Shown piece by piece: positions 5,406-32,707 of a stretch of 35,637 bases of DNA (position 1 is its first letter; each line of letters begins with the position of its first letter). Origin of the DNA: Polyangia bacterium (lineage in GTDB: Bacteria; Myxococcota_A; Polyangia; Polyangiales; Sandaracinaceae); contig JAUHXR010000057.1 in the NCBI GenBank assembly GCA_030426845.1, positions 1 to 35,637 of the forward strand. The letters are read 5' to 3'. The position numbers and the translations under genes are program-made. A model generated the notes under the pieces. That model was not told the origin of the DNA, ran no database searches, and saw only the letters and a program-made list of their open reading frames with translations.

Positions 5406-7340
<1,935 letters not shown>

Positions 7341-7399: not shown

Positions 7400-9007
7400 T
7401 CAGCGGCCCGAGTTGGACGCCGGGTCGACGTCCGCGGGGTCTAGCTCTGCGGGGTCGACGACCTGCGTCGCCTCTCCAGCGAGGTCGTCGAGGTCGTCGT
7501 TCGTGCGCTCGTCCTCCACGAGCGGGCCGCCGCCCGCCGGGTGCACCGGCGTGAACATCGTCGGCTCGTCCCAGGGATCGGAGAAGTCGGCGTCCGCGTG
7601 GGGAGCGCCCTCCAGCGGCGCGGGCGCCGGGTTGGTGTCGGGCCCCGACGAGTAGCTCTCGTGCTGCTCGGTGGAGTACTCGTCGACGAACACCCCCTCA
7701 GGGACGTGCGGCAGCGCGCTCGACGCGGGGACCGTGCCGGACGCGTCGGAGGGCCGCGCGGTCGTCGGGGCGACGATCTGACGGGTCACCGCGTGGTGCG
7801 CCTCGAGCGGCGGAGGCGAGAGGATCGGCTCGGCGGCGGGCGGCCGGTCGGTCGGGCGCTCGTCGCCGAGATCGACGTCCACCTCGATCAGCGCGTCGAG
7901 CTCGACGTCGACCTCCGAGGGGGGCGGCGGCGCGCTGGTCTGCACCTGCACGCCGGACTCCGCGGGGACGGGCGCGGGCGGGGGGATGGTCGCGCCCTCG
8001 ACCCGCGCCGGCGGCCGCGCCGTCACCCGCTCGGGCGCGGACGGCTCGGCGAAGGGCGGCGCCTCGTCCGAGGGCGCCGCCTGAGGGAACGCCTCGCGCA
8101 TGTACTTGCGCAGGCTCGAGGCCCCGGCGTAGACGCCGTGGCCGTAGACGAAGGCCTGGAGGTCGTCGTGGAGCTCGAGCGCGGTCGCGTAGCGCTCGTC
8201 GCGATCCTTGGCGAGCGCGCGCTGGACGATCGCCTCGAGCGGGGGGGTGACCTCGGGGTTCAGCGCGGCCATCGGCGGGACCTTGGCTTCGTAGACGCGC
8301 CGCAGGGTGTCCATGTCGGAGGGGCCGAGGAACAGGCGCTCGCCGGTCAGCAGCTCGAAGAGCACGATGCCGAGGCCGAACACGTCCACGCGGTGATCGA
8401 TCTCGTCGCCCCGGAGCTGCTCGGGCGACATGTAGGCGAGCTTGCCCTTCACCACGCCGGCCTGGGTCTGGACCATGCGGCCTCGGGCTTTGGCGAGCCC
8501 GAAGTCGGCGACCTTCACCTCGCCGTCGAACGAGACGAGGACGTTCTGCGGGCTCACGTCGCGGTGGATGACCTGAAGCGGCTCGCCGCGCGGACCCTGG
8601 GCGAAGTGCGCGTGGTGGAGCGCCTCGCACATCTTCATCACGACGTGGGCCGCGATGCCGATGGGCACCCGCGCGCCGCGCTTCTGCTCGAGATCGTAGA
8701 TGGCGCGCAGGTCCTTGCCCGTCACGTACTCCATCGCGATGTAGAGCGTGCCCTCGGCCTTCCCGAGATCCTGGATACCCACGATGTTCGGGTGGTTGAG
8801 GCGCACCGCGATCTTCGCCTCGTCGACGAACATCTTCACGAAGTCCTCGTCCTCGACCAGGTTGGGGAGGATGCGCTTGATCGCGATCAGGCGCTCGAAG
8901 CCTTCGGCGCCGAAGAGCTTCGCCTTGAACACCTCCGCCATCCCCCCGATGCCGATCCGTTCGAGGAGGAGGTACTTCCCGAAGCGCACTGAGTTGTCGG
9001 GATTCAC
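7400..9007 (-). CDS. cytosolic eukaryotic-like Ser/Thr protein kinase
   Basis: A 535-residue Hanks-type kinase. The catalytic domain occupies about 10-300: glycine loop RIGIGGMAEVF (17-27), ATP lysine K44, catalytic HRDVSPQN (148-155), DFG (168-170), activation segment GKLAYMSPEQLRG. The remaining about 230 residues are Pro/Ala/acidic and disordered, with no transmembrane helix. I chose GTG 9007 so that the protein begins MNPDNSVRFGKY, close to the usual domain edge; GTG 9061 would add 18 residues and is possible. Neither has a clear Shine-Dalgarno. It is convergent with the FHA sigma-54 activator (59-nt gap) and divergent from a small membrane protein. Its substrate is unknown; the adjacent FHA protein is a natural candidate. 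Confidence 0.9.
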   Translation of the reverse strand: MNPDNSVRFGKYLLLERIGIGGMAEVFKAKLFGAEGFERLIAIKRILPNLVEDEDFVKMFVDEAKIAVRLNHPNIVGIQDLGKAEGTLYIAMEYVTGKDLRAIYDLEQKRGARVPIGIAAHVVMKMCEALHHAHFAQGPRGEPLQVIHRDVSPQNVLVSFDGEVKVADFGLAKARGRMVQTQAGVVKGKLAYMSPEQLRGDEIDHRVDVFGLGIVLFELLTGERLFLGPSDMDTLRRVYEAKVPPMAALNPEVTPPLEAIVQRALAKDRDERYATALELHDDLQAFVYGHGVYAGASSLRKYMREAFPQAAPSDEAPPFAEPSAPERVTARPPARVEGATIPPPAPVPAESGVQVQTSAPPPPSEVDVELDALIEVDVDLGDERPTDRPPAAEPILSPPPLEAHHAVTRQIVAPTTARPSDASGTVPASSALPHVPEGVFVDEYSTEQHESYSSGPDTNPAPAPLEGAPHADADFSDPWDEPTMFTPVHPAGGGPLVEDERTNDDLDDLAGEATQVVDPAELDPADVDPASNSGR

Positions 9008-9080
9008 GGGCTCTGAGCGAGCCTGCCGGTTGAGCGGACGCCCGGTCAAGTGCGCCCCCACCCGCGAGGGCCGGAGCTGC

Positions 9081-10880: not shown

Positions 10881-12437
10881 TCAGGCCGACTGGACGAGCA
10901 GGCAGCCGATCACCCAGGCGCCGCCGATCAGCAAGAACACGGTGGTGTAGCCGAGGATGTCGCGCGCCTTGATCCCCGTGATCGCGAGGAGCGGCAGCGC
11001 CCAGAACGGCTGGAGCATGTTCGTCCACTGGTCGCCGTAGGCGACGGCCATCACCACGTGCTCGACCGGGACGTGCAGCTGCTGCGCGGCCTCGACCGCG
11101 ATGGGGCCCTGCACCGCCCACTGCCCGCCGCCGCTCGGCACGAAGAGGTTCACGAGGCCCGCGCTCAGGAACGTGAACGTGGTGAGGAGCGACGCGGGCG
11201 CCAACGACGAGAGCGCGCCCGCGAGGGTCGCGGCGAGCCCGGTGCCGCGCATGATCCCCATGATCCCCGCGTAGAGTGGGAACTGGAGCACGATGCCGGT
11301 CGTGCCCCGCACCGCCTCGCTGACCGCGGCGACGTAGCGGCGGAGCGAGCCGTGCAGCGCGAGCCCGAGGGTGAGGAACAGCAGGTTGACCGCATTGGGA
11401 TCGAGCTGCGCGACCCCGACGTCGAGCTGCCAGCGCACGCAGGCGGCGGCGAGGAGGAAGACGAGCACGCCGATCGTGAGGGGGTGCCGCTCGACGCGCT
11501 CGGGCACCGTCAGGGCGTGGCCGTCGTCGCGGCTCCGGTAGGCGAGGGCGACCGCGCCGATCGCGACCAGCCCGCCGAGCGCCGCGACGAGCGCGTCATC
11601 GCCGAGCGCCCCGAGGGCCCGCGTCACGTCGGGGCTCGCCGCGCGCACGCCGAGCACGAGGAAGGGGACGACCAGCAGGAGCGCGCTCGGGCCGAGCCCG
11701 CCGTCGTGGGCCACGTCCCGCTCGGGCGCCGGCGCGTCCCCGACGTAGTCGTCGTAGCCCACCGCGTCGTCCGGCGCGGGGGCGAGCAGAGCGCAGACGA
11801 GCGGGATGAGGACCAGCAGGCCGCCCGAGACGACGAGGTTGTCGACGGTCAGCACCGTCCGATCGAAGCCGATGGGAGACAGCGTCGCGGCGAGCTCTTC
11901 GCCGAGGAAGCTCGTGAGCAGGGCGTCCGAGGTGACGTCGAGGGGCGCGGAGCCGGAGAGGCCGCCGTGCCAGCACATCATCGACGCGTAGCCGGCGGCC
12001 ACGAGGAGCGGGTAGTGGGCGCGCACGCCAGCGCCGGCGAGGCGCCGGCCGACCTCGCGCGACAGGAGCGCGCCTACGATCAGGCCGAGCCCCCAGTTGA
12101 GGAGGCCGGCGGCGATCGCGACCGCGGCCACGAGCGCGGCCGCCTGGGCCCCCGTGCGCGGCAGCCCCGCGAGGCCCGCGAGCAGCCGGCGCACCGCGGG
12201 CGCGCTGGCCACCGCGTGGCCCGTCACGAGGATCAGGAGCATCTGCATCGCGAAGGCGAGCAGGCTCCAGAAGCCGCCCTGGCCCTGCCACGCGCGGAGC
12301 GTGTCGAGGAACGACGCGCCCTCGAGCGCCATCGCGAGCGCGAAGACGAGCGCGGTCAGCCCGATCGCGAGGACGAGGGGATCCGGGGTCACGGCGCGAA
12401 AGAACGCCTCGAACCGGCGGCCGAGCGCGCGGATCAT
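10881..12437 (-). CDS. atoE: AtoE-type short-chain fatty acid transporter
   Basis: A 518-residue polytopic inner-membrane protein resembling the AtoE/TIGR00366 family that imports short-chain fatty acids. About twelve hydrophobic segments are visible. Conserved-looking polar patches include GLLNWGLGLIVGALLSREVGRR, HYPLLVAAGYASMMCWHGGLSGSAPL, NLFVPSGGGQWAVQGPI and the end region AYGDQWTNMLQPFWALPLLAI. At about 230-310 there is a polar loop (DDAVGYDDYVGDAPAPERD) that makes it longer than typical AtoE. The start is ATG 12437; frames further upstream run into the divergent kinase and are not used. A TATCAC box lies seven bases before the ATG. Substrate specificity is inferred from family only. 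Confidence 0.85.
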   Translation of the reverse strand: MIRALGRRFEAFFRAVTPDPLVLAIGLTALVFALAMALEGASFLDTLRAWQGQGGFWSLLAFAMQMLLILVTGHAVASAPAVRRLLAGLAGLPRTGAQAAALVAAVAIAAGLLNWGLGLIVGALLSREVGRRLAGAGVRAHYPLLVAAGYASMMCWHGGLSGSAPLDVTSDALLTSFLGEELAATLSPIGFDRTVLTVDNLVVSGGLLVLIPLVCALLAPAPDDAVGYDDYVGDAPAPERDVAHDGGLGPSALLLVVPFLVLGVRAASPDVTRALGALGDDALVAALGGLVAIGAVALAYRSRDDGHALTVPERVERHPLTIGVLVFLLAAACVRWQLDVGVAQLDPNAVNLLFLTLGLALHGSLRRYVAAVSEAVRGTTGIVLQFPLYAGIMGIMRGTGLAATLAGALSSLAPASLLTTFTFLSAGLVNLFVPSGGGQWAVQGPIAVEAAQQLHVPVEHVVMAVAYGDQWTNMLQPFWALPLLAITGIKARDILGYTTVFLLIGGAWVIGCLLVQSA

Positions 12438-12467
12438 CGCGTCCGTGATATCGCGGCTCCGCGCGCC
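12435..12467 (-). promoter_or_regulatory. promoter abutting the atoE start codon
   Basis: On the minus strand TTGTGC, a 17-nt spacer and TATCAC lead to the ATG after seven more bases, so transcription would start at or near the start codon. No Shine-Dalgarno is present. Confidence 0.35.
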
Positions 12468-12503
12468 GCACAAAGCGCGCGTGATCCCGACCTCGCTCCG
12501 GGT

Positions 12504-12519
12504 TAGCATCGACGCCGTG
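12504..12519 (+). promoter_or_regulatory. -10-like box directly before the kinase GTG (leaderless candidate)
   Basis: TAGCAT (12504-12509) lies seven bases before GTG 12517. There is no Shine-Dalgarno and no near alternative start in frame. The -35 region is not convincing. The divergent atoE start 80 bp away has the same arrangement. Confidence 0.4.
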
Positions 12520-13818
12520 CAACGGCGCTGCCCGACCTGTGGGACCGTCTTCCCCGACGAGGTCGCCTTCTGCGGACACGACGGGAGCGTGACCATCCAG
12601 CTCCCGCCGGACGGCGAGGAACCCGACGCGCGGCTCGGGGAGCAGCTCGGCCAGTACATCGTCGCCGCCCACGTGGCGGACGGCGCGATGGGCGCGGTCT
12701 ACGAGGCCCGCAACGCCGAGACCCGCGAGCGCGTCGCGATCAAGGTCCTGCACCCCGAGGTCGAGAACGACGAGGTCGCGGTCGAGCGGTTCAACCGCGA
12801 GTACGAGACCGCGGAGATGCTCGACCACGCGCATGTCGTGACGGTGAAGGACTTCGGCGTCACCCGCGACAACCAGCACTACCTGACGATGGAGTTTCTC
12901 GTCGGGCGGGAGCTCGGCGAGATCTTCCGCACCGAGGGCAAGCAGACACCGGCCCGCACGCTGCGCATCCTCTGCCAGGTCGCCGAGGCGCTCGAGCACG
13001 CGCACTCCTTCGGCGTCATCCACCGCGACCTCAAGCCGGACAACATCTACATCTGCGACGGCGAGGGCGGCGACGACGTGCGGCTCCTCGACTTCGGCTC
13101 GGTGAAGCTCCAGGTCGAGACGGGGCCGAAGCTCACCGCGTTCGGGACGACGCTCGGCAGCCCGTACTACATGAGCCCGGAGCAGGCCAAGGGGCTCCCC
13201 GACGTCGACACCCGCACCGACGTGTTCGCGATCGCGGCGATCCTCTACGAGGGCCTCAGCGGCAAGATCGCGTTCCAGGCGCCGACGGTGGCCGAGATCC
13301 TGATGAAGATCGTCCGGCAGATGCCGACGCCGATCCACACCGTGGCCGACGGGCTGCCGCCGCGCATCCACGCGGTCATCGAGAAGGGCCTCGCGAAGAA
13401 GAAGGAGGACCGCTACGACAGCCCGGCGGGCCTCATGAACGCGGCGCTCGAGGCGTTCGGCGTGCAGGGCTCCGCCGCGGATTGGGCGGATCGGCCCCAG
13501 GCGGAGCTCGAGGCAGCCCTCGCGGCCGCGCCGCCGATCGGGCTCTCGCTCGACGACCCCAACACGGTCCCCGACCCCCGTCCGCCGGAGGGCGCCGGGG
13601 CAGACGACGCACGCGGCGAGCCCCCGGAGGCCGAGGTCGCGCCGGGACCGCCGCTCGGCGCCCCGAAGGCCTCCGCGGAGCCGCTCCCCCCGCCGGCGAT
13701 CGAAGCGGTGCCGGGCGCTTCGAGCGGCAACCGGACGCTCATCCTCGCCGCCCTCGGCGTGGTCGCGGCCGGCGTCATCTGCTTGGCCGGCTCGCTCGCG
13801 ATCTTCGTCCTGGGCTGA
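12517..13818 (+). CDS. zinc-ribbon, tail-anchored Ser/Thr protein kinase
   Basis: A 433-residue Hanks-type kinase. Residues 5-20 are a zinc-ribbon-like motif (CPTCGTVFPDEVAFCGHDG), often found at the front of myxobacterial kinases. The catalytic domain (about 45-310) has a glycine loop GAMGAVYEA, K76 in VAIKVLHPE, HRDLKPDN from H169, DFG at 192-194 and the activation segment TTLGSPYYMSPEQAKG. A Pro/Ala/Glu-rich linker follows, then a single hydrophobic helix at about 407-433 that ends the protein, so the kinase would be held on the cytosolic face by a C-terminal anchor with no periplasmic sensor. The last codons and stop lie inside the first unit of a 13-bp repeat array. GTG 12517 was chosen because the zinc ribbon begins right after it. 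Confidence 0.9.
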   Translation: MQRRCPTCGTVFPDEVAFCGHDGSVTIQLPPDGEEPDARLGEQLGQYIVAAHVADGAMGAVYEARNAETRERVAIKVLHPEVENDEVAVERFNREYETAEMLDHAHVVTVKDFGVTRDNQHYLTMEFLVGRELGEIFRTEGKQTPARTLRILCQVAEALEHAHSFGVIHRDLKPDNIYICDGEGGDDVRLLDFGSVKLQVETGPKLTAFGTTLGSPYYMSPEQAKGLPDVDTRTDVFAIAAILYEGLSGKIAFQAPTVAEILMKIVRQMPTPIHTVADGLPPRIHAVIEKGLAKKKEDRYDSPAGLMNAALEAFGVQGSAADWADRPQAELEAALAAAPPIGLSLDDPNTVPDPRPPEGAGADDARGEPPEAEVAPGPPLGAPKASAEPLPPPAIEAVPGASSGNRTLILAALGVVAAGVICLAGSLAIFVLG

Positions 13819-13987: not shown

Positions 13988-15883
13988 TCAGCTCTCGCCG
14001 GGGCTCACCGCCGAGAAGGCGTCGTCGACGACCTCGAGCAGGCGGGCGCCTTGGAGGGGGCCGCGGTCGGCGCCGAGCCCGCCGCTCGCCCCGACGGTGA
14101 CCGCCCGCTCGCCGCGCCCGAGCCACCGCGCCACCCCGCCTCGGGTCGTCTCGCCCGCCTCGACCGCGCCGCGCACCAGGCGGAACGCGTCGTAGCCGTA
14201 GGCCGCGAAGGTGTCCGGCGCGCTCCCGAACCGATCGCGGAACCGATCGGCGAAGCTCGCGCCCGGGCCGGCCGCCGTCGGGGCGTGGAACGGCGCCGCG
14301 AAGAGCGCGCCCTGGAGGTAGCGGCTCGCCGACGCGGTCAGGCGCGCGTCGACCGCGACGCTCGGGGCGAGCAGCGTGATCGCCCGGCCGCCGCGGGGCG
14401 CCGGGGTGCCCGCGCGCGTGCTCCAGATCCCGGCCGCGGCCAGCGCTGGAGCAATCAAGAGTACCTGACGGCTCGCGTCGGGCACCAGCAGCGCGTCGAA
14501 GCGCGCGCGCTCGAGCCGCCCGATCGCCTCGCCGAACGCGGTCGCGCCCGCCGGGTAGGTCTCTCGCGCGACGAGCTCGCCGCCCGCCGCGGTCACCGCC
14601 CGCGCGTAGGCCTCGGTCATCGCGCGGCCGTAGGCGTGCTCGGGCGCGAGCACCGCGAAGCGGCTCGCCCCGCGCGCCCGAGCCGCGGCCACGAGCGCCC
14701 GCGCCTCCTCGTCGGGGGCGGGGAACAGGCGAAACACCAGCGGGCGATCCGCGACCACCGTGGGGTCGGGAACGAGGGCGAGCAGCGGCACGCCGAGGTC
14801 CTGCGCCCGCTGCGCGGCGGCCCGCGCGGCCGCGCCCTCCAGCGGGCCCACGATCGCGATCGCGCGGTGCTCGGAGACGAGGTCCTCTACGGCCTGGGCC
14901 GCGCGCTCGGGGTTGCCCGCGTCGTCGCGCAGCACGAGCTGGGGTGCGTTCGGATCCGGCGGGCCGTCGGCCGGGTTTCCGGCCGCGAGCATCAGGCCGC
15001 GCATCGCGCGTTGCCCGACCTCTCTGCCGCGCCCGGTGAGAGGCAGGATCGCGCCGATGACCCGCGGGTCTGCGCGCTCGGTCCGCTCGGCGCGCACCGC
15101 GAGCTCGGCCAGCTCGTCGTCCATCGGCACGTCGCGCGCGCGCAGGTCGGCCACCATCTCGGAGACGCGCGCCATGTCCCCCGCGTCGAACGCCAGGCGG
15201 ATCGCGCGCACGGCCACGATCGGCCAGGCGGCGCCGCCGCGCGGCAGCTCCGCGTAGGCGCGCGCCACGTCGTCCGGTGCGGCCTCCTGCGTCAGCTCGC
15301 GCAGCCGCCGCCGGGCCTCCTCGCGGGCCTCCTCACCCGCCGCCTCCGCGCCGACGAGCTGATCGAGCGCCTCGAGCGCGAGGAGGGTGTCGCCTGTCGC
15401 GGCCGCGGCCGAGGAGAGCGTCCGGAGGAGCAGCACCGTCTCGGCCGGATCGGTGGTGCGCCCGGCGAGCGGCCGCAGCCGCTCGAGCGCCTCGGCGTGC
15501 CGGCCAGCGAGGTGCAGCGCCACCCCCTGGTAGAAGCGTCCCGCCTCGCGGGCCGCCGGGTCGGTCGACTCCGCGACCTGGTCGAACTGCGCGAGCGCGC
15601 CCTCGAGATCGCCGGCCGCGAGTCGGACGCGGCCGAGCCCGAGCCGCGCGACCGGGACGAGCGGGTCGGCCGGGTGCGCCTCGAGGAACGCGCGGAATTC
15701 GCGCTCCGCGTCCGCCGAGCGGCCCGCCTCCGCGGCCTCCCGAGCGCGACGGAGATCCGCCTCCGCCACCGGGTCGTCGCTCGTGAGGCTCGGCAGCGAT
15801 CCGAGGTCCTGCTGACCGCTCGAGTGCGGGCAGCCCGTGAGGAGCGTGGCGACGCAAGCGAACAGACCGACGAGGGCGCGCAT
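13988..15883 (-). CDS. LpoA/LivJ-like lipoprotein: TPR-like N-terminus plus periplasmic-binding fold
   Basis: A 631-residue lipoprotein with signal MRALVGLFACVATLLTGC (cysteine 18). Residues about 40-230 are helical TPR-like repeats (AEAGRSADAEREFRAFLEAHP, LGLGRVRLAAGDLEGALAQF, LHLAGRHAEALERLRPLAG). Residues about 265-620 form a type I periplasmic-binding-protein fold of the Leu/Ile/Val-binding type: VIGAILPLTGRGREVGQRAMRG, LVLRDDAGNPERAAQAVEDL, AIVGPLEGAAARAAAQRAQ and AYGYDAFRLVRGAVEAG. This two-part layout matches LpoA (YraM/LppC), the outer-membrane lipoprotein that activates PBP1a, so a role in peptidoglycan synthesis or ligand sensing is likely. ATG 15883 is divergent from the PFK-2 gene. 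Ligand and partner are unknown. Confidence 0.78.
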   Translation of the reverse strand: MRALVGLFACVATLLTGCPHSSGQQDLGSLPSLTSDDPVAEADLRRAREAAEAGRSADAEREFRAFLEAHPADPLVPVARLGLGRVRLAAGDLEGALAQFDQVAESTDPAAREAGRFYQGVALHLAGRHAEALERLRPLAGRTTDPAETVLLLRTLSSAAAATGDTLLALEALDQLVGAEAAGEEAREEARRRLRELTQEAAPDDVARAYAELPRGGAAWPIVAVRAIRLAFDAGDMARVSEMVADLRARDVPMDDELAELAVRAERTERADPRVIGAILPLTGRGREVGQRAMRGLMLAAGNPADGPPDPNAPQLVLRDDAGNPERAAQAVEDLVSEHRAIAIVGPLEGAAARAAAQRAQDLGVPLLALVPDPTVVADRPLVFRLFPAPDEEARALVAAARARGASRFAVLAPEHAYGRAMTEAYARAVTAAGGELVARETYPAGATAFGEAIGRLERARFDALLVPDASRQVLLIAPALAAAGIWSTRAGTPAPRGGRAITLLAPSVAVDARLTASASRYLQGALFAAPFHAPTAAGPGASFADRFRDRFGSAPDTFAAYGYDAFRLVRGAVEAGETTRGGVARWLGRGERAVTVGASGGLGADRGPLQGARLLEVVDDAFSAVSPGES

Positions 15884-15940: not shown

Positions 15941-17179
15941 GTGAGCCAGATCGGTCGAGCCGAGCGGATCCGCCTGGCGCTGGTGATGGTGGGGCTGCCT
16001 GCCCGGGGCAAGACCCACATGGCCCGGCGCGTGGCGCGCTACCTGCGCTGGTTGGGGCTCGAGACGCGGGTGTTCAACGTCGGCAACTACCGGCGCGAGC
16101 ACCTCGGGAGCCACCAGGCGCACCACTTCTTCGATCCCACCAACGCCGAGGGCCTCGCCGGTCGGCGCCGGGTCGCGGAGCTCGCGCTCGACGACATGAT
16201 CGGCTGGTTCGCCCAGGGCGGCGAGATCGGCATCTACGACGCCACCAACACCACCCGGGAGCGCCGGGGGCGCCTCCGGGATCGGCTCGCCGCCCACGGG
16301 CTCGAGGTCGTCTTCATCGAGTCGGTCTGCGAGGACGAGGCGGTCATCGAGGGCAACATCCGGCAGACCAAGCTGCGGATGCCCGACTACGCGGGCGTCG
16401 CCCCCGACGAGGCGGTCCGCGACTTCCGCGCGCGGATCGCGCACTACGAGCGCGTCTACGAGCCGATCGAGGAGCGCGAGGGGAGCTTCGTCCGGGTGAT
16501 CGACGTCGGCCGCAAGGTCGTCGCGCACCGCACCCAGGGCTACCTCGCGTCTCGCCTCGTCTACTTCTTGATGAACCTCCACGTGGCCCCGCGCTCGATC
16601 TGGCTGACGCGCCACGGCGAGAGCGCCTTCAACGTCGACAACCGGGTGGGGGGCGATCCTCCGCTGAGCCCCCGCGGCGAGCGCTTCGCCCGGGCCCTCG
16701 GCGAGCACGTGGAGGAGCTGGGCGTCGATCGCGCCTCGGTGCGCGTGTGGACGAGCACCCTGCGCCGCACCCGCATGACGGCCGCGCCGCTCGGCCTGCC
16801 GACCGAGGAGTGGCGCGCGCTCGACGAGATCGACGCGGGGGAGTGCGACGGGATGACCTACGAGGAGATCCAGGAGCGGCTGCCCGGGGAGCACGCCGCG
16901 CGCCGGGCCCGCAAGCTGACCTACCGCTACCCGCGCGGGGAGTCCTACGAGGACGTGATCCGACGGCTCGAGCCGGTGATCATCGAGCTCGAGCGCGAGC
17001 GCCGGCCGGTCCTGGTGATCGCGCACCAGGCGGTGCTCCGCGCGCTCTACGCCTACCTGATGGATCGCTCCCTCGAGGAGGTCCCGTACCTCCCCGTCCC
17101 GCTCCACACCGTCATCCGGCTGACCCCGATCACCTACGCGTGTGAGGAGGAGCGCACGCGGCTCATCGAGTCGGGTTGA
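15941..17179 (+). CDS. bifunctional 6-phosphofructo-2-kinase/fructose-2,6-bisphosphatase
   Basis: A 412-residue protein matching the animal/plant PFKFB enzyme over its full catalytic length; it would make and break fructose-2,6-bisphosphate. Kinase half (about 10-215): Walker A GLPARGKT at 18-25, FNVGNYRRE, and the signature YDATNTTRERR at 99-109, followed by FIESVCEDEAVIEGNIRQ. Phosphatase half (about 216-405), a histidine phosphatase: LTRHGES with phospho-accepting H225, GGDPPLSPRGERFA, acid E296 in DEIDAGECDGMTYEEIQE, and second histidine H362 in IAHQAV. Both halves keep the expected catalytic residues. It lacks the long N- and C-terminal regulatory tails of mammalian isoforms. Start GTG 15941, no clear Shine-Dalgarno. 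It lies 43 nt before the HEAT-repeat operon on the same strand. The family is certain; what the product regulates in this bacterium is not known. Confidence 0.93.
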   Translation: MSQIGRAERIRLALVMVGLPARGKTHMARRVARYLRWLGLETRVFNVGNYRREHLGSHQAHHFFDPTNAEGLAGRRRVAELALDDMIGWFAQGGEIGIYDATNTTRERRGRLRDRLAAHGLEVVFIESVCEDEAVIEGNIRQTKLRMPDYAGVAPDEAVRDFRARIAHYERVYEPIEEREGSFVRVIDVGRKVVAHRTQGYLASRLVYFLMNLHVAPRSIWLTRHGESAFNVDNRVGGDPPLSPRGERFARALGEHVEELGVDRASVRVWTSTLRRTRMTAAPLGLPTEEWRALDEIDAGECDGMTYEEIQERLPGEHAARRARKLTYRYPRGESYEDVIRRLEPVIIELERERRPVLVIAHQAVLRALYAYLMDRSLEEVPYLPVPLHTVIRLTPITYACEEERTRLIESG

Positions 17180-17222: not shown

Positions 17223-18020
17223 ATGAACAGACTCGCCGCGCTCTTGGGGATCGCGGGGCTCGTGTGGGCGATCGGCCTGCCCGACGCCTCCGCGCAACGA
17301 CGCCGCGGGCGGCCGTCGATCGACGGACCCGCCGCGCAGCTCGATTCGGCCGACGCGGCCGAGGTGCGGGCGGGCCTGGAGGCCCTGGGGCTCTCGGGCA
17401 GCCCGCAGGCGGTCGAGCCGATCGTCACGCGCGTGCGCCGTGGCCTGCCGCCCGACCTGCTCGGCGTGGCGGTGGACACCCTGATGATCCTCGGGCGCGC
17501 CGAGGCGGGTCCGCTCCTCTACGACCTCATGCATCACCGGCGCGCGGACATCCGGCTCAAGGCGGTGCAGGCGATCCTCGCGACGCTCCCGCGCGGCCAC
17601 CAGGGCGTGCTCGTCGCCGCGCTGAGCGACCCCGACCCGCGCGTGCGCGGCGCGGCGGCCGAGGGGCTCGGCTCGACGGGCGCGGTCCAGTCCATCGACG
17701 CGCTCTTCCACGCGATGGAGCGTGGCGTGCCGGAGGCGCCCATGGCGATCGCGGCCCTCGCGCGGCCGGCCGACGTCGAGCGCTTCCTCGGCCTGGTGGG
17801 CACGGTGCCGTTCGACACGGTGACGCCCGCGCTGGCCGAGATGCTCCACCGCGACGACCTCGCGGACCGCTCCAAGATCGCGATCATCCACCGCCTCACG
17901 GAGCTCGCGACCGCCGGCGTCCGCGCGTTCCTCGAGGACTTCGTCGCCAACCTCGAGCCCGACGACGACGGAGAGGTCCGCCGCGCGGCCGAGGACGCCA
18001 TCCCGAGGATCGGCCAATGA
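17223..18020 (+). CDS. exported HEAT-repeat protein
   Basis: A 265-residue protein with a cleavable signal peptide (MNRLAALLGIAGLVWAIGL, likely cut after DASA near residue 25). The mature part is helical repeats: RAGLEALGLSGSPQAVEPIV, VDTLMILGRAEAGPLLYDL, LKAVQAILATLPRGHQGVLV, ALSDPDPRVRGAAAEGLGSTG and RAAEDAIPRIGQ, a HEAT/PBS-lyase-like array. ATG 17223 is preceded by GGAGGAG. The stop overlaps the next start (ATGA), so it is the first gene of a three-gene operon of exported repeat proteins. No catalytic residues are visible; a periplasmic scaffold is inferred. Confidence 0.8.
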   Translation: MNRLAALLGIAGLVWAIGLPDASAQRRRGRPSIDGPAAQLDSADAAEVRAGLEALGLSGSPQAVEPIVTRVRRGLPPDLLGVAVDTLMILGRAEAGPLLYDLMHHRRADIRLKAVQAILATLPRGHQGVLVAALSDPDPRVRGAAAEGLGSTGAVQSIDALFHAMERGVPEAPMAIAALARPADVERFLGLVGTVPFDTVTPALAEMLHRDDLADRSKIAIIHRLTELATAGVRAFLEDFVANLEPDDDGEVRRAAEDAIPRIGQ

Positions 18021-21144: not shown

Positions 21145-22761
21145 TCACGCGGCACGGCGGCGCATCGCTTGCTGAGCCCGCGCCACCACCAGCGCGGGGC
21201 TGTCGGCGGCGGTCGCGCGCACCACCGCGACGCCGAGCTTCGTGAAGCGCTCCTTCGCCTCGCGGAAGTGCCGGCGCTCGGTGCGCTCGTAGACGTCGAA
21301 CACACGCGCGCCGACCGGGTCGTCGGAGCGCGCGGCGAAGGTCGACGCGTCGGGGACGACGAACGCGAGCCCGTGGCCGTGCATCCGCAGCAGCTTGGCC
21401 GCGGCCTCCACCTCGTCGAGCGCTCCGACTCCGTCGAAGTCGGTGATCACCACGATCGACATCGGCGTGCGGCTGCGCCCTCCCGCCTCGCGCAGCGCGC
21501 TCGCGAGCCCGGGGCCCTTCAGCCCGTCGCGGGGGTCCGGCCGGTAGGGCAGGGGGATGCCGCGCGCCCGGCAGAAGCGACGCAGCGCCTCGCCGGCCGG
21601 GCTGCTCGCGCGCACCGCGAGGCGCTCCTCGTCCTCGTCCATCGCGTCGCTCACGTGCCGGACGAGCATCGGCACGTTCCAGCCCTTGGCCTGGGCGAAG
21701 TCGACGCCGTCCTGCTGGCGCACGTAGCGCCCGACGACCGCCGCTACCTCGTCGTCGCTCACGTCGGTCAGGTCCGCGTCCACCGCCTCGATCGCGCCCA
21801 GCAGGGTCTCGAACACCCGCAGGAGCTGCGGGCGCCCGTCGTTGGGCGAGAGGTGCGCGAGCAGGCGTCCGTCGACCGTGATGACCCCCACTCGGTCGCC
21901 CGCGTCGAGCGTGCGCCGCGCCTCGCTGGCCGCGGCCTCGACCGCGAAATCGAGCTTGCGGGCTCCCGGCTCGCCGCCGCGCATCGTGCCGCTGACGTCG
22001 AGGATCACGTAGCGCGTCTCCTGCACCTCCTGCTCGACCTCGCGGACCATGAGCCGGCCGCTGCGCGCGCTCGCCTTCCACGCGATCGACTTGAACGGGT
22101 CGCCGGGCCGCAGCTCTCGCAGCTCTCGCAGCTCCGTCCCGCTGCCCGCGGGGCTGAGCAGGCTCGCGCCCGAGCGCTCCACCGGCAGCCCGGTGATCGT
22201 CCGGGGGGCCGCGCGGGTCCGCAGCGCGGCGCGCGGCAGCACCTTGATGACGAGCGGGTTGGGGAAGTAGAGGGGCAGCTCGAAGAGCCCGAGCGGCCCC
22301 GGCAGGGTGACGGCCAGCCCGTGCATCACGACGCGCCCGACCGACGGGGCCACGAGGCGGAAGCTGAACTCCGTCCGCGCGTTCGAGCCCAGCGTCAGCG
22401 CCTCGCCGTCGTCGTCGACCAGCCTCGCGCCGCCCGGCGCGAGCGGGGTCAGGTCGCGGAGCGTCAGGCGCATGGCCCCGCGGTGCCGCAGGAAGCAGCG
22501 CACCTCGAACGGCTTGCCGGGCACCACCGCGCCGCCGCCCGATCCCGGCTCGGCGTGGGAGAGCCACCAGGCGAACTCGAGCCGGTGGCGCCGCACCCGG
22601 CGGCCGAGCGGCATGGTGAGCGCGAGGCACATCGCGAGGCCGATCGCGATCGAGCCGCCGAGGAGGGTCGCCGGCCACGAGCCGAGAGCCGCGCCGACCG
22701 CGACCGCGAGGAGCGCCCCGACCACCGCGACGAGGGCCGTCCGGGTGGGGATGGGGAGCAT
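21145..22761 (-). CDS. DUF58 membrane protein with vWA-like domain
   Basis: A 538-residue protein. Two N-terminal membrane helices (about 8-50) are followed by a beta-rich region, then the DUF58 hallmark LRPGDPFKSIAWKASARSG at about 217-235, and a von Willebrand A-like domain beginning YVILDVSGTM (251-260), where DVSGT is a MIDAS-type metal site. DUF58 proteins work with MoxR AAA+ ATPases in envelope assembly, stress or protein maturation. The ATG overlaps the MoxR stop by one base (TGATG), so expression is coupled. It is longer than many DUF58 proteins because of insertions around 320-400. The partner relationship is well known for the families; the client is unknown. Confidence 0.88.
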   Translation of the reverse strand: MLPIPTRTALVAVVGALLAVAVGAALGSWPATLLGGSIAIGLAMCLALTMPLGRRVRRHRLEFAWWLSHAEPGSGGGAVVPGKPFEVRCFLRHRGAMRLTLRDLTPLAPGGARLVDDDGEALTLGSNARTEFSFRLVAPSVGRVVMHGLAVTLPGPLGLFELPLYFPNPLVIKVLPRAALRTRAAPRTITGLPVERSGASLLSPAGSGTELRELRELRPGDPFKSIAWKASARSGRLMVREVEQEVQETRYVILDVSGTMRGGEPGARKLDFAVEAAASEARRTLDAGDRVGVITVDGRLLAHLSPNDGRPQLLRVFETLLGAIEAVDADLTDVSDDEVAAVVGRYVRQQDGVDFAQAKGWNVPMLVRHVSDAMDEDEERLAVRASSPAGEALRRFCRARGIPLPYRPDPRDGLKGPGLASALREAGGRSRTPMSIVVITDFDGVGALDEVEAAAKLLRMHGHGLAFVVPDASTFAARSDDPVGARVFDVYERTERRHFREAKERFTKLGVAVVRATAADSPALVVARAQQAMRRRAA

Positions 22762-23729
22762 CAGCGCCCTTCGCGCCGGTGGGGCACCGTGTCGAGCGCC
22801 TGCCGCACGATCGACTCCGTCGCGATCCCCTCCATCTCCGCCTCGGGGGTGAGCACGAGGCGGTGGGCGAGCACCGAGACCGCGAGCCGCTTGACGTCGT
22901 CGGGAAGGACGTAGCCGCGCCCCGCGATGAGCGCGCGGGCGCGGGCGGCGCGGATGAGCGCGAGCGAGGCGCGCGGGGAGGCCCCGAGGAAGAGCCGCGC
23001 GTGCTCGCGCGTGAACTCGGCGAGCCGCACCACGAAGTCGAGGATCGAGTCCTCGACGTGCACCCGATCCACCAGGTGCTGCATCGTCAGGATCTGCGCC
23101 GGCGCGAGCACCTGCCGCGCCCGGGGCGTCCCGTCGGTGAAGCGACGCAAGATGCCTTTCTCGTCGCGGGCCGACGGGTAGCCGATCATCAGCCGCACGA
23201 GGAAGCGGTCGATCTGCGCCTCGGGGAGCGGGTAGGTGCCCGCCTGCTCGACCGGGTTCTGGGTGGCCAGGACGATGAACGGGCTCGGCAGGGCCCGGGT
23301 GTCACCCTCGATCGTGGCCTGGAACTCCTGCATCGCCTCGAGGAGCGCGCTCTGCGTCTTGGCGGGCGCGCGGTTGATCTCGTCGCCGAGCACCACGTTG
23401 GCGAAGATCGGCCCCTCGCGCAGCTCGAAGGTGCCCTCCTTGGGCGAGAGCACGTAGGTGCCGGTGATGTCGGCGGGCAGCAGGTCCGGGGTGAACTGGA
23501 TGCGCCGGAACTGGCAGCCGAGGGTGGCCGCGAACGCCTTGCAGAGCGTCGTCTTCGCGACGCCGGGGACGCCCTCGAGCAGCGCGTGGCCGCGGGCGAG
23601 GAGCGAGACGAGGAGCAGCTCGGGGATCTCGCGCGGCCCGACGTAGACGCGCTGCACCTCGCCGATGACCTGGGTCGCGCTCTCGGCGACGCTCGCGAGC
23701 GTCTCGGCCTCGATGGTCTGCTGGGTCAC
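22761..23729 (-). CDS. MoxR-family AAA+ ATPase
   Basis: A 322-residue chaperone-like ATPase. Walker A GVPGVAKT at 53-60, FTPDLLPADITG at about 79-90, Walker B with D116 E117 in VLGDEINRAP, sensor region VLATQNPVEQAGTYPLPEAQ, and arginine-finger-like DRF follow the MoxR pattern. The C-terminal lid includes GASPRASLALIRAARARA. Start GTG 23729 overlaps the DUF4350 stop by four bases. MoxR proteins act with vWA/DUF58 proteins, present next door. Part of a four-gene operon with DUF4350, DUF58 and rsmA. Confidence in family is high; target unknown. Confidence 0.92.
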   Translation of the reverse strand: MTQQTIEAETLASVAESATQVIGEVQRVYVGPREIPELLLVSLLARGHALLEGVPGVAKTTLCKAFAATLGCQFRRIQFTPDLLPADITGTYVLSPKEGTFELREGPIFANVVLGDEINRAPAKTQSALLEAMQEFQATIEGDTRALPSPFIVLATQNPVEQAGTYPLPEAQIDRFLVRLMIGYPSARDEKGILRRFTDGTPRARQVLAPAQILTMQHLVDRVHVEDSILDFVVRLAEFTREHARLFLGASPRASLALIRAARARALIAGRGYVLPDDVKRLAVSVLAHRLVLTPEAEMEGIATESIVRQALDTVPHRREGR

Positions 23730-24997
23730 GCCGCCTCCGGGGGCGAGATGCGCGCGAGGAGCGCGTCGCCGCGCTCCACCAGCTCCTCGAACCGGCGAGC
23801 GGACACCGTGGGCGGGGCCGGCGGCTGGTCCGCCAGGCCGTGGAGCCGGTCGAGCTCGAGCAGGAGTTCGCGCATCTGGTTGAGGTCGGTCTCGGGCATC
23901 CCGCGGCGCTTCATCGCGGCGAGCACGTCGCGCAGGAGCGCGCGCCCGCTCAACGAGAGTCTCCGTAAGATCTCGTCTTCCAGCTCGAACTTGTAGACCA
24001 TGAGCGGCTGCAGCAGGTTGACTTTCCTTCGGGAAAAGAACTCGACCCGCCCGAGGAAGCCGCCCTTCGACGGGGGCCGCGCGAACATCCGCGCGGAGCG
24101 ATACGGCGAGCGGCGGGGGAGGGCGCCGAGGGCCAGGATGACCGCGATCGCGGCCAACGCCAGCGCGGCGATCCGAAGGGCCGGCCCCGGGATATCGAGG
24201 CTCGCCACCGTCTCGAGCGCGGCGCGGAGATCGTGCAGCGGGCGGTCGGCTCCGGGCTCGCCGAACCGGCCGACGACCCGGGTCTCGGGTCCGACGACGT
24301 AGAGGGTGCCGCCGCGCACCTCGGTCAGGTACTCGACGAGGTTCTCCGCGAAGCGGTGGTTGCCCCGGAGCTGGAGCATGTTGTCGATGAACACGCTGGG
24401 GTCCGACACGACCACCAGGCGCCCCTCGCTGACCGCCCCGGCCAGCACGAGCGCTTCGCCCTCGCCCAGCGAGAAGATCGGCGAGAGCCCGCGGTGGTAG
24501 ACGACCGCCGGGTGGTTGGCCACGAGCGCGCGGACCCCGCGGGCCAGCCGATGGTTGCCGACCGGACGCGCGACCAGGAGCGCCGGGTTGCCCCGGAGCC
24601 GCGTGGCGATCTCCGGATCGGGCTCGCCGCGGCCTATCTGGAAGACCCTCAGGAAGCTGTCGCCTGCCCCGAAGTCGTCGGCCACGCAGGCCCGTCCGCC
24701 CGCGTTGAGGAACGCGGTGAGCGCTCCGGCCGGCAGCTCCTCCTGGGGGGCCAGTATCAAGAGCGCGTCGTTTGCCTCCACCTCGCCGATGTCCAGGCGG
24801 GATGGGATCGCCACTGTGATCTCGCGCGATTGCGCGATCCGAATCAACTCGGATACGGAGTTCCAGGCGCTCCCGTCGGGGGCGAAGTCGGGCTGCGCAC
24901 TGGCGCTCCCCGCGGGCGCGAGCGCGCTCAGCAGGATCGCGCCGTGCGCGATCACGCAGCGGAGGATCGCGGTCAGGCCGAGGCGGGGGCGCCGCAC
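23726..24997 (-). CDS. DUF4350-type membrane protein
   Basis: A 423-residue protein with an N-terminal signal (about 1-34, ending SASA) and one strong membrane helix at about 273-292 (ALRIAALALAAIAVILALGAL). The exported part, about 35-270, has a DUF4350/GATase-like arrangement (DALLILAPQEELPAGALTAF, ALVLAGAVSEGRLVVVSDPSV, NMLQLRGNHRFAENLVEYL). The cytosolic tail is helical and rich in Leu/Arg. DUF4350 genes commonly precede MoxR and DUF58 genes, as here. I chose GTG 24997: a TATGCT box lies six bases before it and longer starts give an implausible Arg-rich extension. First gene of the operon. Confidence 0.78.
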   Translation of the reverse strand: MRRPRLGLTAILRCVIAHGAILLSALAPAGSASAQPDFAPDGSAWNSVSELIRIAQSREITVAIPSRLDIGEVEANDALLILAPQEELPAGALTAFLNAGGRACVADDFGAGDSFLRVFQIGRGEPDPEIATRLRGNPALLVARPVGNHRLARGVRALVANHPAVVYHRGLSPIFSLGEGEALVLAGAVSEGRLVVVSDPSVFIDNMLQLRGNHRFAENLVEYLTEVRGGTLYVVGPETRVVGRFGEPGADRPLHDLRAALETVASLDIPGPALRIAALALAAIAVILALGALPRRSPYRSARMFARPPSKGGFLGRVEFFSRRKVNLLQPLMVYKFELEDEILRRLSLSGRALLRDVLAAMKRRGMPETDLNQMRELLLELDRLHGLADQPPAPPTVSARRFEELVERGDALLARISPPEAA

Positions 24998-25033
24998 GCG
25001 GCGAGCATAGCGCCCAACGCGACGGGCTCGCAA
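24995..25033 (-). promoter_or_regulatory. promoter abutting the DUF4350 start codon (leaderless candidate)
   Basis: On the minus strand TTGCGA (25033-25028), an 18-nt spacer and TATGCT (25009-25004) are followed after six bases by GTG 24997. Transcription would begin at or next to the start codon; no Shine-Dalgarno is present. Confidence 0.45.
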
Positions 25034-25105
25034 AGCTGGACCCTTGGCCCCAGGAGTGGGATCGTGGGCGCGGTTCGGGAATGTGGTGGCCGATGGATAC
25101 CGCCA

Positions 25106-25133
25106 TTGCCGCCGGGACCCGAATGACTACAGT
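25106..25133 (+). promoter_or_regulatory. candidate promoter for the 56-residue protein
   Basis: TTGCCG (25106-25111), 16-nt spacer, TACAGT (25128-25133). The predicted leader of about 32 nt contains GGGAGGGGAAGGAG (25150-25163), a long purine-rich ribosome-binding region ahead of ATG 25172. Confidence 0.4.
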
Positions 25134-28333: not shown

Positions 28334-29701
28334 TTGACTGCGCGACTGGGCAGCTACGACCTGGTTCGGAAGATCGCCGCGGGCGGGATGGCCGAGATCT
28401 TTCTCGCCCGTCAGTGGGGCGAGGGCGGGTTCTTCCGCGACGTGGTCGTCAAGCGACTCTTCTCGCACCTCGCCGAGCACGAGCGGCAGCTGCGGATGTT
28501 CCTCGACGAGGCGCGGCTCCTCTCGGAGCTGTCGCACCCGAACATCCCGCAGGTCTACGACGTCGGCTATCAGGACGGGCACTGGTACATCGCGATGGAG
28601 TACGTCGAGGGGCTGACCGTGGCCGACCTCTGGCGACAGGGCGCGAAGGCCGGCGTGGTGATGCCGATGAACGTCGCGATCGCCGTGACGCTGCAGGCGT
28701 GCGAGGCCCTCCATCACGCGCACGAGCGCGCGGATCGCGCGGGGCGCCCGCTGCGCATCGTCCACCGCGACGTGACGCCGCACAACCTGATGCTCACGCG
28801 CGACGGCGTGGGCAAGCTGATGGACTTCGGCGTCGCGGCGACGAGCGCGCGCAAGGACACCGAGGCGGGCGCGGTGCGCGGCACGTTCGCGTACATGGCC
28901 CCCGAGCAGGTGCGCGGCCGCCCGCTCGACAAGCGGGCCGACGTCTTCGCGCTCGGCGTCGTCCTGTACGAGCTGACGACGGGCACGCGGCTCTTCCGCG
29001 GGACGGACGTGCAGATCATGACCGCGGTGGTCGAGCAGGACGCGCCGCTGCCCTCGAGCCGCGTCCCGGGCTACCCCGCGGACCTCGAGGAGATCGTGCG
29101 GGCGACGCTCATGCGGGACCGGTCTCAGCGCATGCCCAGCGCCGCGCACCTCGCCGCGTACCTCGAGGAGCTCGCGATGCGGCACGGGATGCTGATCGGC
29201 CCGCGCGCGGTCGCGCGCTACTTCGGCTCGGTCGCGCCGGCCACGCGGATCCGCGAGGAGGCGCTCGCGATGGTGGAGAAGCCGACCCTCGAGGTGGTGC
29301 CCGACTCCGAGTCGCGCCGCGTCTGGGGCGCCGACTCCGAGGAGCTGCCCGAGATCGACGAGAGCGAGCTGCTCGACGACCTCGAGCTGCTGAGCGTCCC
29401 GCCGGCCGCGCCGGACTCGCTCGGTCCCGACACCGTTCAGCCGCTGCCGCCGATCGACGCGTTCGACGATCTGCACGAGGAGATCACCGCGCAGTCCGAC
29501 GCGTACAGCCTCGACGACGAGGATGAGGCCCTGGTGCTCGACGGCTTCGCGGACGAGCTGTCTCGCGACCGGGACCGACCGGTGGTGCTGCTCGAGGGCT
29601 CGGCCCGCAAGGAGCCGGCGCCGCGCGGCGACGAAGAGGGCGGAGACTACGTGAGCGAGCTCGAGCGGCGCCTGGCCGGCGAGGATCCGAGCGAGCGCTG
29701 A
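28334..29701 (+). CDS. cytosolic eukaryotic-like Ser/Thr protein kinase
   Basis: A 455-residue Hanks-type kinase. Glycine loop KIAAGGMAEIF (13-23), ATP lysine K40 (DVVVKRL), catalytic HRDVTPHN (144-151), DFG (164-166), activation segment RGTFAYMAPEQVRG. The kinase domain ends near 285. The C-terminal about 170 residues are acidic and disordered (EELPEIDESELLDDLELL), without a membrane helix. Start TTG 28334 is the first codon that fits the domain edge; ribosome-binding sequence is weak. It converges on a small Cys-rich lipoprotein; the two stop codons lie in one short hairpin (29698-29711). Divergent from the metzincin-like gene. Substrate unknown. Confidence 0.9.
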   Translation: MTARLGSYDLVRKIAAGGMAEIFLARQWGEGGFFRDVVVKRLFSHLAEHERQLRMFLDEARLLSELSHPNIPQVYDVGYQDGHWYIAMEYVEGLTVADLWRQGAKAGVVMPMNVAIAVTLQACEALHHAHERADRAGRPLRIVHRDVTPHNLMLTRDGVGKLMDFGVAATSARKDTEAGAVRGTFAYMAPEQVRGRPLDKRADVFALGVVLYELTTGTRLFRGTDVQIMTAVVEQDAPLPSSRVPGYPADLEEIVRATLMRDRSQRMPSAAHLAAYLEELAMRHGMLIGPRAVARYFGSVAPATRIREEALAMVEKPTLEVVPDSESRRVWGADSEELPEIDESELLDDLELLSVPPAAPDSLGPDTVQPLPPIDAFDDLHEEITAQSDAYSLDDEDEALVLDGFADELSRDRDRPVVLLEGSARKEPAPRGDEEGGDYVSELERRLAGEDPSER

Positions 29702-30075: not shown

Positions 30076-32640
30076 TTACAGGATGTCGTACTCCTTGAGG
30101 CGCCGGTAGAAGGTGCGGCGCGCCATGCCGAGGGCCTTGGCGGCGCGCACCCGGTTCCAGTTGTGCTGCTCGAGGGCCGAGAGGATGCGGCCCTTCTCGG
30201 TCTCCTTGAACTCGGAGACGGTCGCGGGCGGCGCCTCGGCCCGGGCCGGCGCGGCGGCCGGGGCCTGGGAGAGCGCCCGATCGATCCGCGGAGGAACGAC
30301 GAGCGCGCTGCCGTCGTCGGCGAGCGCGAGGTCGTCGGCGTCGATCACGTCCCCCTCCGCCATGACCCAGGCGTTGAGGAGAAGGTGCTCGAGCTGGCGC
30401 ACGTTCCCCGGCAGCGGGTGCGACCGGATGCGGTTGACCGCGTCGCGCGAGATGCGCTTCGGCTCGGCGTCGTCCCGGCGCGCGAACATCGCGAGGAAGT
30501 GATCGCAGAGCAGCGGGATGTCGTCGGCCCGGTCGCGCAGCGGCGGCAGCCACAGCTCGACCACGTTGAGACGGTAGTAGAGGTCCTCGCGGAACTCCCC
30601 GCGCGTCACGAGCTCGGTGAGCGCCTTGTTGGAGGCGGCGATGACCCGCACGTCGATCGGCAGCTCGTCCTCGCCGCCGACCGGTCGGACGCGGCCCTCC
30701 TGCAGCACACGGAGCAAGTCGACCTGCATCTTGGCCGGCATGTCGCCGACCTCGTCGAGGAAGAGCGTGCCGCCCGAGGCGCGGACGAGGACCCCCGAGC
30801 GATCGCGGTCGGCGCCGGTGAACGCGCCGCGCACGTGGCCGAACAGCTCGCTCTCGAGGAGCGCCTCGGGGACGGCGGCGCAGTTCAGCGCGACGAAGGG
30901 CTCGCGCGAGCGTCGCCCGCCGAAGTGGATGGCGCGCGCGATGAGCTCCTTGCCGGTGCCGCTCTCGCCCTGGATGACGACGGGGACGTCCGCGTCCTGG
31001 ACGCGATCGATGACCGCGAACACGCGTCGCATCGGCGCGCTGTGGCCGACGATCCCGTGTCGGTCGTTGGCCTGTCGCAGCGCGTCTCGCGCGCGGATGA
31101 GCTCCGTCTTGGCCTCGGCGAGCTCGTTCGTCTTCGCGTCGAGGAGCCGCTCGATCTCCTCCTTGGCCACCGCGAGGTCCTCGTTGGCGCGCTCGAGCTG
31201 CTCGCGGCGCTCCTCGAGCGAGCGCAGGAGCCGGGCGTTCTCGAGCGCGATCGCGGCCTGATCCGCGAAGGCGAGCAGCAGGTCCAGGTCGCCCTCGCCG
31301 AAGCGCCCGCGGCGCACGCGGTGCTCGAGGTACAGGACGCCCAGTTCGCCGGCGCGGCCGCGGATGGGCAGGCAGGCGACCGACTTGAGCATCAGCTTGT
31401 GGACCGAGACGTACTCGCTGAGGCGGTGATCGTTGCGCGCGTCGACGGTGAGGATCGGCTCGCCGTCGATGAGGACCGCCTCGGCGATCGAGCGGCTGAA
31501 CGCGACGTGCGGATCCTCGGGGTTGGCCGCGTCGCGCACGGTGTGCGGCATCAAGCCCCCGCGCTCGTCGGTCAGGAGCACGAAGCCGCGCTCGGCGCCC
31601 GACAGCTCGATCGCGCAATCCGTGATGCGCTCGAGCAGGCGGCCGAGATCGGTCTCCGACGCGAGGCGCTTGAGCACCTCGAGGAGGCGCGCGAGCCGGC
31701 CGTCGGCGAATGGGGCCTGGGCGAGCGCGGCGCGGCGCGGGCGGTCGGTCTGGCCGGCGGCGCGGCGGCGCACGTGCTGGCGCGCGCGGTCGTTCCAGAA
31801 ACCTTCGCGGTGCTCGCGCGCGAGGCCGGTGGCGATCGACTCGAGCGCCTCGACCGCCTGCTCCCAGCTCTTGCGGGCGAGGAACTCCGCGCCGTGCTCC
31901 TCGTGCAGCTTCCCCAGCGCCGCGAGGGCCCGCCACTGGAGGGCCGGTGTGTCGCGGAGCGCGTGCGCGAGGCGCTCGAGCTCGGTGACCGCGCCGTCGG
32001 CGTCGCCGGTGGCGCCGCGGGCCCGCGCGAGCAACAGCGCGAGCCGCGGCCGGAGCCGGCCGACCCTTGCTGCCTCGATGTGATCGCGCGCCTCCGCCAG
32101 GCGGGACGCGGCCGCCGAGGGGTCGACCGGCCCGTCCCGATCCAGCAGGGCCTCGGCCGCGTCGAGATAGGCCCCCGCGAGGTGCTCGCCTGCGTCGTCG
32201 ACCTCCCGCAGGTGCGCCAGCGCGTTGTCGAAGCAGCGCAGCGCCTCTTCCGTTTGCCCGGTGGCGAGGGCCGCGCGCCCGAGCGCCCGGCTTGCCTCGG
32301 CGCGCGCCACGCCGTCGGCCTGACGGTCCTCGAGCACCCCGCGGGCCTCGACCGGCGCCTCGGCGAGCTGACCGAGCCAGGCCCGCAGCCGCGCTCTCAG
32401 CGACCGGGCCCGGGCGGCTTCCGTCGGGGCGTCCGCGTCCCCGGCCTCGCGCAGCGCCTCCTCGATCAGGCCGAGCGCGTCCTGAGCGCGCCCGCGGGCC
32501 CACGCCAGGCGGGCGCCCTCCCACGCGACCCGCGCTCGATCGGGCCCCTGGGCCGCCTGCCTCAGCGCGGAGAGGGCCTCGTCCGCGGCGTCGAGGTCAC
32601 CGGAGGCCAGTGCCTCGGCGAAGGAGCCGAAGTTCGCCAT
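30076..32640 (-). CDS. TPR-GAF sigma-54-dependent transcriptional activator
   Basis: An 854-residue enhancer-binding protein. Residues about 1-300 are TPR-like helical repeats (FAEALASGDLDAADEALSAL, ALGRAALATGQTEEALRCF, LAALGKLHEEHGAEFLARKSW); about 325-490 is a GAF sensor (AERGFVLLTDERGGLMPHTV, LPIRGRAGELGVLYLEHR); about 490-530 is a coiled coil; about 530-770 is AAA+ with Walker A GESGTGKE (558-565), canonical GAFTGA (605-610) and Walker [10 protein letters not shown]; the C-terminus is a Fis-type HTH (NRVRAAKALGMARRTFYRRL). The ATG at 32640 begins MANFGSFAEALASG; a GTG at 32676 is unlikely. Lies downstream of the LysM peptidase gene on the same strand (67-nt gap). TPR input suggests a protein or peptide signal. 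Confidence 0.92.
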   Translation of the reverse strand: MANFGSFAEALASGDLDAADEALSALRQAAQGPDRARVAWEGARLAWARGRAQDALGLIEEALREAGDADAPTEAARARSLRARLRAWLGQLAEAPVEARGVLEDRQADGVARAEASRALGRAALATGQTEEALRCFDNALAHLREVDDAGEHLAGAYLDAAEALLDRDGPVDPSAAASRLAEARDHIEAARVGRLRPRLALLLARARGATGDADGAVTELERLAHALRDTPALQWRALAALGKLHEEHGAEFLARKSWEQAVEALESIATGLAREHREGFWNDRARQHVRRRAAGQTDRPRRAALAQAPFADGRLARLLEVLKRLASETDLGRLLERITDCAIELSGAERGFVLLTDERGGLMPHTVRDAANPEDPHVAFSRSIAEAVLIDGEPILTVDARNDHRLSEYVSVHKLMLKSVACLPIRGRAGELGVLYLEHRVRRGRFGEGDLDLLLAFADQAAIALENARLLRSLEERREQLERANEDLAVAKEEIERLLDAKTNELAEAKTELIRARDALRQANDRHGIVGHSAPMRRVFAVIDRVQDADVPVVIQGESGTGKELIARAIHFGGRRSREPFVALNCAAVPEALLESELFGHVRGAFTGADRDRSGVLVRASGGTLFLDEVGDMPAKMQVDLLRVLQEGRVRPVGGEDELPIDVRVIAASNKALTELVTRGEFREDLYYRLNVVELWLPPLRDRADDIPLLCDHFLAMFARRDDAEPKRISRDAVNRIRSHPLPGNVRQLEHLLLNAWVMAEGDVIDADDLALADDGSALVVPPRIDRALSQAPAAAPARAEAPPATVSEFKETEKGRILSALEQHNWNRVRAAKALGMARRTFYRRLKEYDIL

Positions 32641-32707
32641 GAGCCAGACAGTGCCATCGTGGTCCGACCTGCACAAGACGGCACGTGTCAGGTGTGTGCC
32701 GCCGTGG

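Follow-up and report, generated by a model that had tools for sequence, protein, structure and literature searches.

A PFK-2/FBPase-2 family enzyme in Myxococcota and a candidate target for fructose-2,6-bisphosphate in bacteria

Judged from its sequence, a gene of a Sandaracinaceae bacterium almost certainly encodes an enzyme of the PFK-2/FBPase-2 (PFKFB) family. We found that PFK-2 is widespread in Myxococcota, beyond the curiosity of a single genome, and that these proteins, members of a known enzyme family, have apparently not been characterised in bacteria so far. We lean, by somewhat better than even chances, towards an explanation in which a bifunctional PFK-2/FBPase-2 would make and break fructose-2,6-bisphosphate (F2,6BP), which would inhibit class I fructose-1,6-bisphosphatase (FBPase). 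So far as the open literature shows, what is new is that the bacterial branch is given attention, together with a specific hypothesis about its target.

Domains, fold and active sites

The gene lies in the window, the whole 35,637-nucleotide stretch of DNA that was analysed. Its features and immediate neighbours are as follows.

15941–17179, plus strand: PFK-2/FBPase-2 gene; GTG start, TGA stop, open throughout, 412 amino acids
15959–16591, plus strand: 6-phosphofructo-2-kinase domain (Pfam 6PF2K, residues 7–217, 249.7 bits, E = 2.7e-74)
16598–17128, plus strand: fructose-2,6-bisphosphatase domain (Pfam His_Phos_1, residues 220–396, 147.1 bits, E = 6.4e-43)
13988–15883, minus strand: divergent gene for a TPR and periplasmic-binding-protein (LppC-like) lipoprotein; context, outside the enzyme
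17223–18020, plus strand: gene for a HEAT-repeat protein, downstream; context, with no known link to the enzyme

The two Pfam domains follow one another in a single chain in the PFKFB order, and the curated cut-off for 6PF2K is 27 bits. When the protein was compared with the PDB by phmmer, human PFKFB3 ranked first (434 bits, query residues 13–406), a match far beyond chance. Pairwise alignment gave about 50% identity to PFKFB3 across the catalytic core, and in a structure alignment the phosphatase half shared 55% identity with its rat liver counterpart. The AlphaFold model (pLDDT 91.3) matched crystal structures of PFKFB2 and PFKFB3 in Foldseek with TM scores of 0.91–0.95. The protein is thus like eukaryotic PFKFB1–4 (human PFKFB3, 2axn/6ic0; human PFKFB2, 5htk; rat liver phosphatase domain, 1fbt) in domain order, core identity, catalytic and binding residues and predicted fold, but it has no N- or C-terminal regulatory extensions and sits on a bacterial chromosome. 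By contrast, the bacterial histidine phosphatases CobC (alpha-ribazole phosphatase), PhoE and phosphoglycerate mutase, which belong to the same superfamily as its C-terminal half, have no kinase domain and are only about 23–36% identical to it; the query falls well below the curated cut-offs of these NCBIfam families. The 412-residue protein shows every defining PFKFB feature that can be tested. The first-pass annotation had called it a complete PFK-2/FBPase-2, and the two domains, the identity to PFKFB3, the fold and the retained sites bear this out.

The active sites are conserved in detail. The Walker A motif GLPARGKT occupies residues 18–25 and YDATNTTRERR residues 99–109 (DATNTT, 100–105), and H225, E296 and H362 align with H254, E323 and H388 of human PFKFB3, which confirms where these motifs and phosphatase residues had first been placed. 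Our wider list of sites, which we take to be that of UniProt entry Q16875 (PFKFB3), falls in the query at these residues.

Kinase domain: C130; fructose-6-phosphate (F6P) pocket R51, R75, T102, R108, K144, R165 and Y169
Phosphatase domain: R224, H225, N231, R276, E296, Y307, R321, K325, Y336, H362, Q363 and R367

In human numbering, the kinase sites K48, R75, R99, D125, T127, R133, C155, K169, R190 and Y194 all match, as do the phosphatase sites R253, H254, N260, G266, E323, Y334, R348, K352, Y363, H388, Q389 and R393. The Walker A lysine, D100, C130, R51, R75, T102, R108, K144, R165, Y169, R224, H225, E296 and H362 of the query are identical to human and also invariant in 34 bacterial homologues, which agree at nearly all positions when the listed sites are taken together. 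At human position 303 (query R276), PFKFB3 has Ser, and the rat liver isoform and all of the bacterial proteins have Arg. Ser at this position is associated with the weak phosphatase activity of PFKFB3; because the bacterial enzymes have Arg instead, their phosphatase is predicted to be effective.

On this evidence, both catalytic activities are very likely to be present in the protein. One alternative is a one-way enzyme, chiefly a phosphatase or chiefly a kinase, with the other site nearly silent. This would be in keeping with eukaryotic isoforms, among which the kinase/phosphatase ratio differs greatly, but it is distinctly unlikely, given that each site retains all of its catalytic residues without variation and that Arg is present where the weak-phosphatase isoform has Ser. 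Another alternative is a PFKFB-like kinase/phosphatase whose substrate is some other sugar phosphate, such as a pentose phosphate or sedoheptulose phosphate, and whose product differs as well. Several residues neighbouring the pocket do vary among homologues (for example, at human position 132), and we found no published biochemistry of any bacterial PFK-2 in the open literature, outside which many subscription papers lie. However, the F6P and F2,6BP contacts that we checked do not differ between the human enzyme and nearly all of the 34 bacterial proteins, and the overall identity and the fold agree as well, which makes a different sugar very unlikely. The first-pass annotation had offered a choice between another target and another sugar, and the second half of that choice largely falls away with the conservation of the pocket.

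The absence of regulatory tails, also suggested at first reading, held up at both ends of the protein. About 11 residues precede the kinase core, and the C terminus lies 13 residues beyond the last conserved tyrosine, Y399. A long N-terminal extension is impossible because the divergent lipoprotein-like gene, whose start ATG lies upstream of PFK-2 on the minus strand, at about 15883, bounds the 5′ end. For the same reason we rejected an open frame running upstream to 14051 as part of PFK-2. Regulatory N- and C-terminal extensions are typical of many eukaryotic PFKFB enzymes, but they do not define the family.

Distribution and ancestry in Myxococcota

We counted matches above the curated 6PF2K cut-off in 282 Myxococcota genomes from across the phylum and in 14 well-known control genomes. 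PFK-2 was present in 64 of the 282 (about one fifth), spread over 13 tool-numbered families, and in none of the 14 controls, which include E. coli and were the only genomes sampled outside Myxococcota. In these 64 genomes it is a stand-alone chromosomal gene, and the genome under study (9.4 Mb in 538 contigs) has one copy. Relatives sharing 77% and 68% identity come from Sandaracinaceae, and one genome of this family that carries PFK-2 (G177) consists of one contig, 10,327,335 bases long. A mobile origin was rejected, as no full-length copy occurred among the plasmids, phages and viral contigs searched.

The HEAT-repeat gene also adjoins PFK-2 in another genome of the same family (G149), and both it and the lipoprotein gene are kept beside PFK-2 only among close relatives, within Sandaracinaceae. 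Our gene-neighbourhood comparison found no conserved neighbour beyond these relatives, and on that ground we rejected a functional gene cluster that would reveal the target. Elsewhere, the window holds a dense set of Ser/Thr kinases and sigma-54 activators, a combination typical of myxobacterial signalling: a 22-kb span has three genes for Ser/Thr protein kinases, at 7400–9061 (minus), 12097–13818 (plus; kinase domain at about 12667–13416) and 28334–29701 (plus), and there are two sigma-54 activators with GAF domains, at 5406–7340 (plus) and 30076–32676 (minus), one of which also has an FHA domain. At 21145–25106 (minus) a DUF58/vWA gene adjoins a MoxR-type AAA gene, a common pair in bacteria; about 475 residues precede the AAA domain in the AAA frame, whose start is possibly overlong.

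The gene tree placed the query inside a Sandaracinaceae clade with support of 100/98. In a tree with phosphatase outgroups, Myxococcota proteins were separate from the vertebrate ones with moderate support (83/82) and long outgroup branches. With vertebrates as the only eukaryotes and with such branches, the trees do not fix the direction of transfer between eukaryotes and bacteria. To our knowledge, the PFKFB family is otherwise described from eukaryotes, as would suit a recent eukaryote-to-bacterium transfer or eukaryotic contamination in the assembly. Either is highly improbable, however: the gene is intact and intronless, it has bacterial neighbours in an order common to its Sandaracinaceae relatives, the positive genomes include the 10.3-Mb single contig, and both trees speak against it. 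Taken together, this looks like an old bacterial residency of PFK-2 rather than recent capture or contamination. Public databases contain bacterial 6PF2K entries. Michels and Rigden (2006) reportedly proposed that the fusion arose in an ancestor of eukaryotes, and how deeply PFK-2 is spread within Myxococcota matters for the question of a eukaryotic or a bacterial birth of the fused enzyme. One speculative and rather unlikely reading is that F2,6BP signalling is an old Myxococcota system acting on class I FBPase, from which eukaryotes would have derived PFKFB already fused, rather than by a fusion in early eukaryotes.

Class I FBPase and PFK-1 as candidate targets

Class I FBPase (PF00316) was present in 58 of the 64 PFK-2 genomes, compared with 96 of the 218 without PFK-2 (raw Fisher P = 4e-12), and the class II FBPase GlpX in 0 of 64 compared with 47 of 218 (P = 2e-6). 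When the association of PFK-2 with class I FBPase was stratified by family, a CMH test gave a chi-square of only 3.9 (P about 0.05), so the association mostly reflects shared ancestry and the remainder is suggestive; we dropped a claim of strong statistical co-occurrence. Single genomes illustrate both sides. G093 is the sole carrier both of PFK-2 and of class I FBPase among 21 members of its family. G143 possesses the two genes as well, most of its relatives carrying GlpX instead. Both belong to families mostly lacking the two genes, and the PFK-2 and FBPase trees each place them with family f20. A counter-example is G119, a 96% complete genome with PFK-2 and without class I FBPase. In the neighbourhood comparison, PFK-2 was unlinked to FBPase or PFK-1 genes. 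Many Myxococcota genomes lack class I FBPase and GlpX alike, including all of families f23 and f38 and 20 of the 21 members of f24.

The class I FBPase of Sandaracinaceae has the E. coli enzyme (2gq1/2qvr) as its nearest relative in the PDB (367 bits), and it keeps N212, R243, Y264 and K274 (pig numbering), which we take to be sugar-phosphate contacts of FBPase. The listed F2,6BP and AMP sites of class I FBPase did not differ between PFK-2-positive and PFK-2-negative genomes, and the idea that divergence at these positions tracks PFK-2 was rejected. Hines et al. (2007), listed among the references of PMC6400660, reportedly describe synergistic inhibition of mammalian and bacterial FBPase by AMP and F2,6BP, and E. 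coli class I FBPase, the closest solved relative of the Sandaracinaceae enzyme, is reported to be inhibited by F2,6BP. E. coli itself has no 6PF2K above the cut-off, so an F2,6BP-making enzyme of this family is not expected among its own proteins. The part of the first-pass annotation that pointed to another target thus gains from the co-occurrence of PFK-2 with an F2,6BP-sensitive enzyme class, and we give class I FBPase about an even chance of being the F2,6BP target in PFK-2 bacteria.

No match to PF00316, GlpX or an E. coli FBPase query was found in the 538 contigs of the genome under study. Both of the sampled genomes of the same family carry class I FBPase. In G177 the gene order is class I FBPase, a flippase-like gene and PFK-1 (L052:5623–10776), and a contig of the genome under study (C28) begins within the flippase-like gene and continues directly with PFK-1. 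Because the G177 order would put FBPase beyond that point, the missing gene is best explained by a contig break, with FBPase probably just past the end of C28, and its true absence is less likely. This row of class I FBPase, flippase-like membrane protein and PFK-1 in Sandaracinaceae means that the opposing enzymes share a neighbourhood.

F2,6BP acts mainly on PFK-1 in animals and fungi. It might be made and broken in these bacteria too but act on the bacterial PFK-1, or on another glycolytic enzyme such as pyruvate kinase, and not on FBPase. Of the 64 PFK-2 genomes, 63 encode PFK-1, and the genome under study has an ATP-type PFK (GGDGS motif) together with a divergent paralogue. However, PFK-1 occurs in 268 of the 282 sampled genomes, and being nearly universal in the phylum its presence is uninformative. 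The main PFK-1 of the genome under study is single-length (376 amino acids) and scores far below the cut-off of the eukaryotic-type model, and we would therefore not expect it to have the duplicated F2,6BP site that eukaryotic PFK has. Furthermore, M. tuberculosis PfkA and PfkB showed no significant activation by F2,6BP (PMC7867265), one direct measurement that agrees with the insensitivity of bacterial phosphofructokinases assumed in the first-pass annotation. We therefore consider a glycolytic target unlikely. The divergent PFK-family protein lies on a separate contig (C437; L041:3845–5047, minus strand); its best match, 102 bits, is far below all curated cut-offs, and the motifs GGDGS and TIDND are replaced in it by GGNGT and SIDND.

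Proposed control of sugar metabolism

In the explanation that we favour, with class I FBPase as the target, the kinase half would convert F6P and ATP to F2,6BP, and the phosphatase half would break F2,6BP down via a phosphohistidine at H225. F2,6BP and AMP would jointly inhibit class I FBPase. When F6P is plentiful, gluconeogenesis would be shut and a futile cycle with the ATP-type PFK-1 avoided. In an enzyme without tails, the kinase/phosphatase ratio would probably be set by metabolites.

Textbooks present F2,6BP as a signal of eukaryotes. Should these bacteria make it, it would be an unrecognised regulator of their switch between glycolysis and gluconeogenesis, and there would be a physiological context for the reported inhibition of E. 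coli-type FBPase by F2,6BP. In the Myxococcota that carry PFK-2, a regulator usually deemed eukaryotic may set the direction of sugar metabolism.
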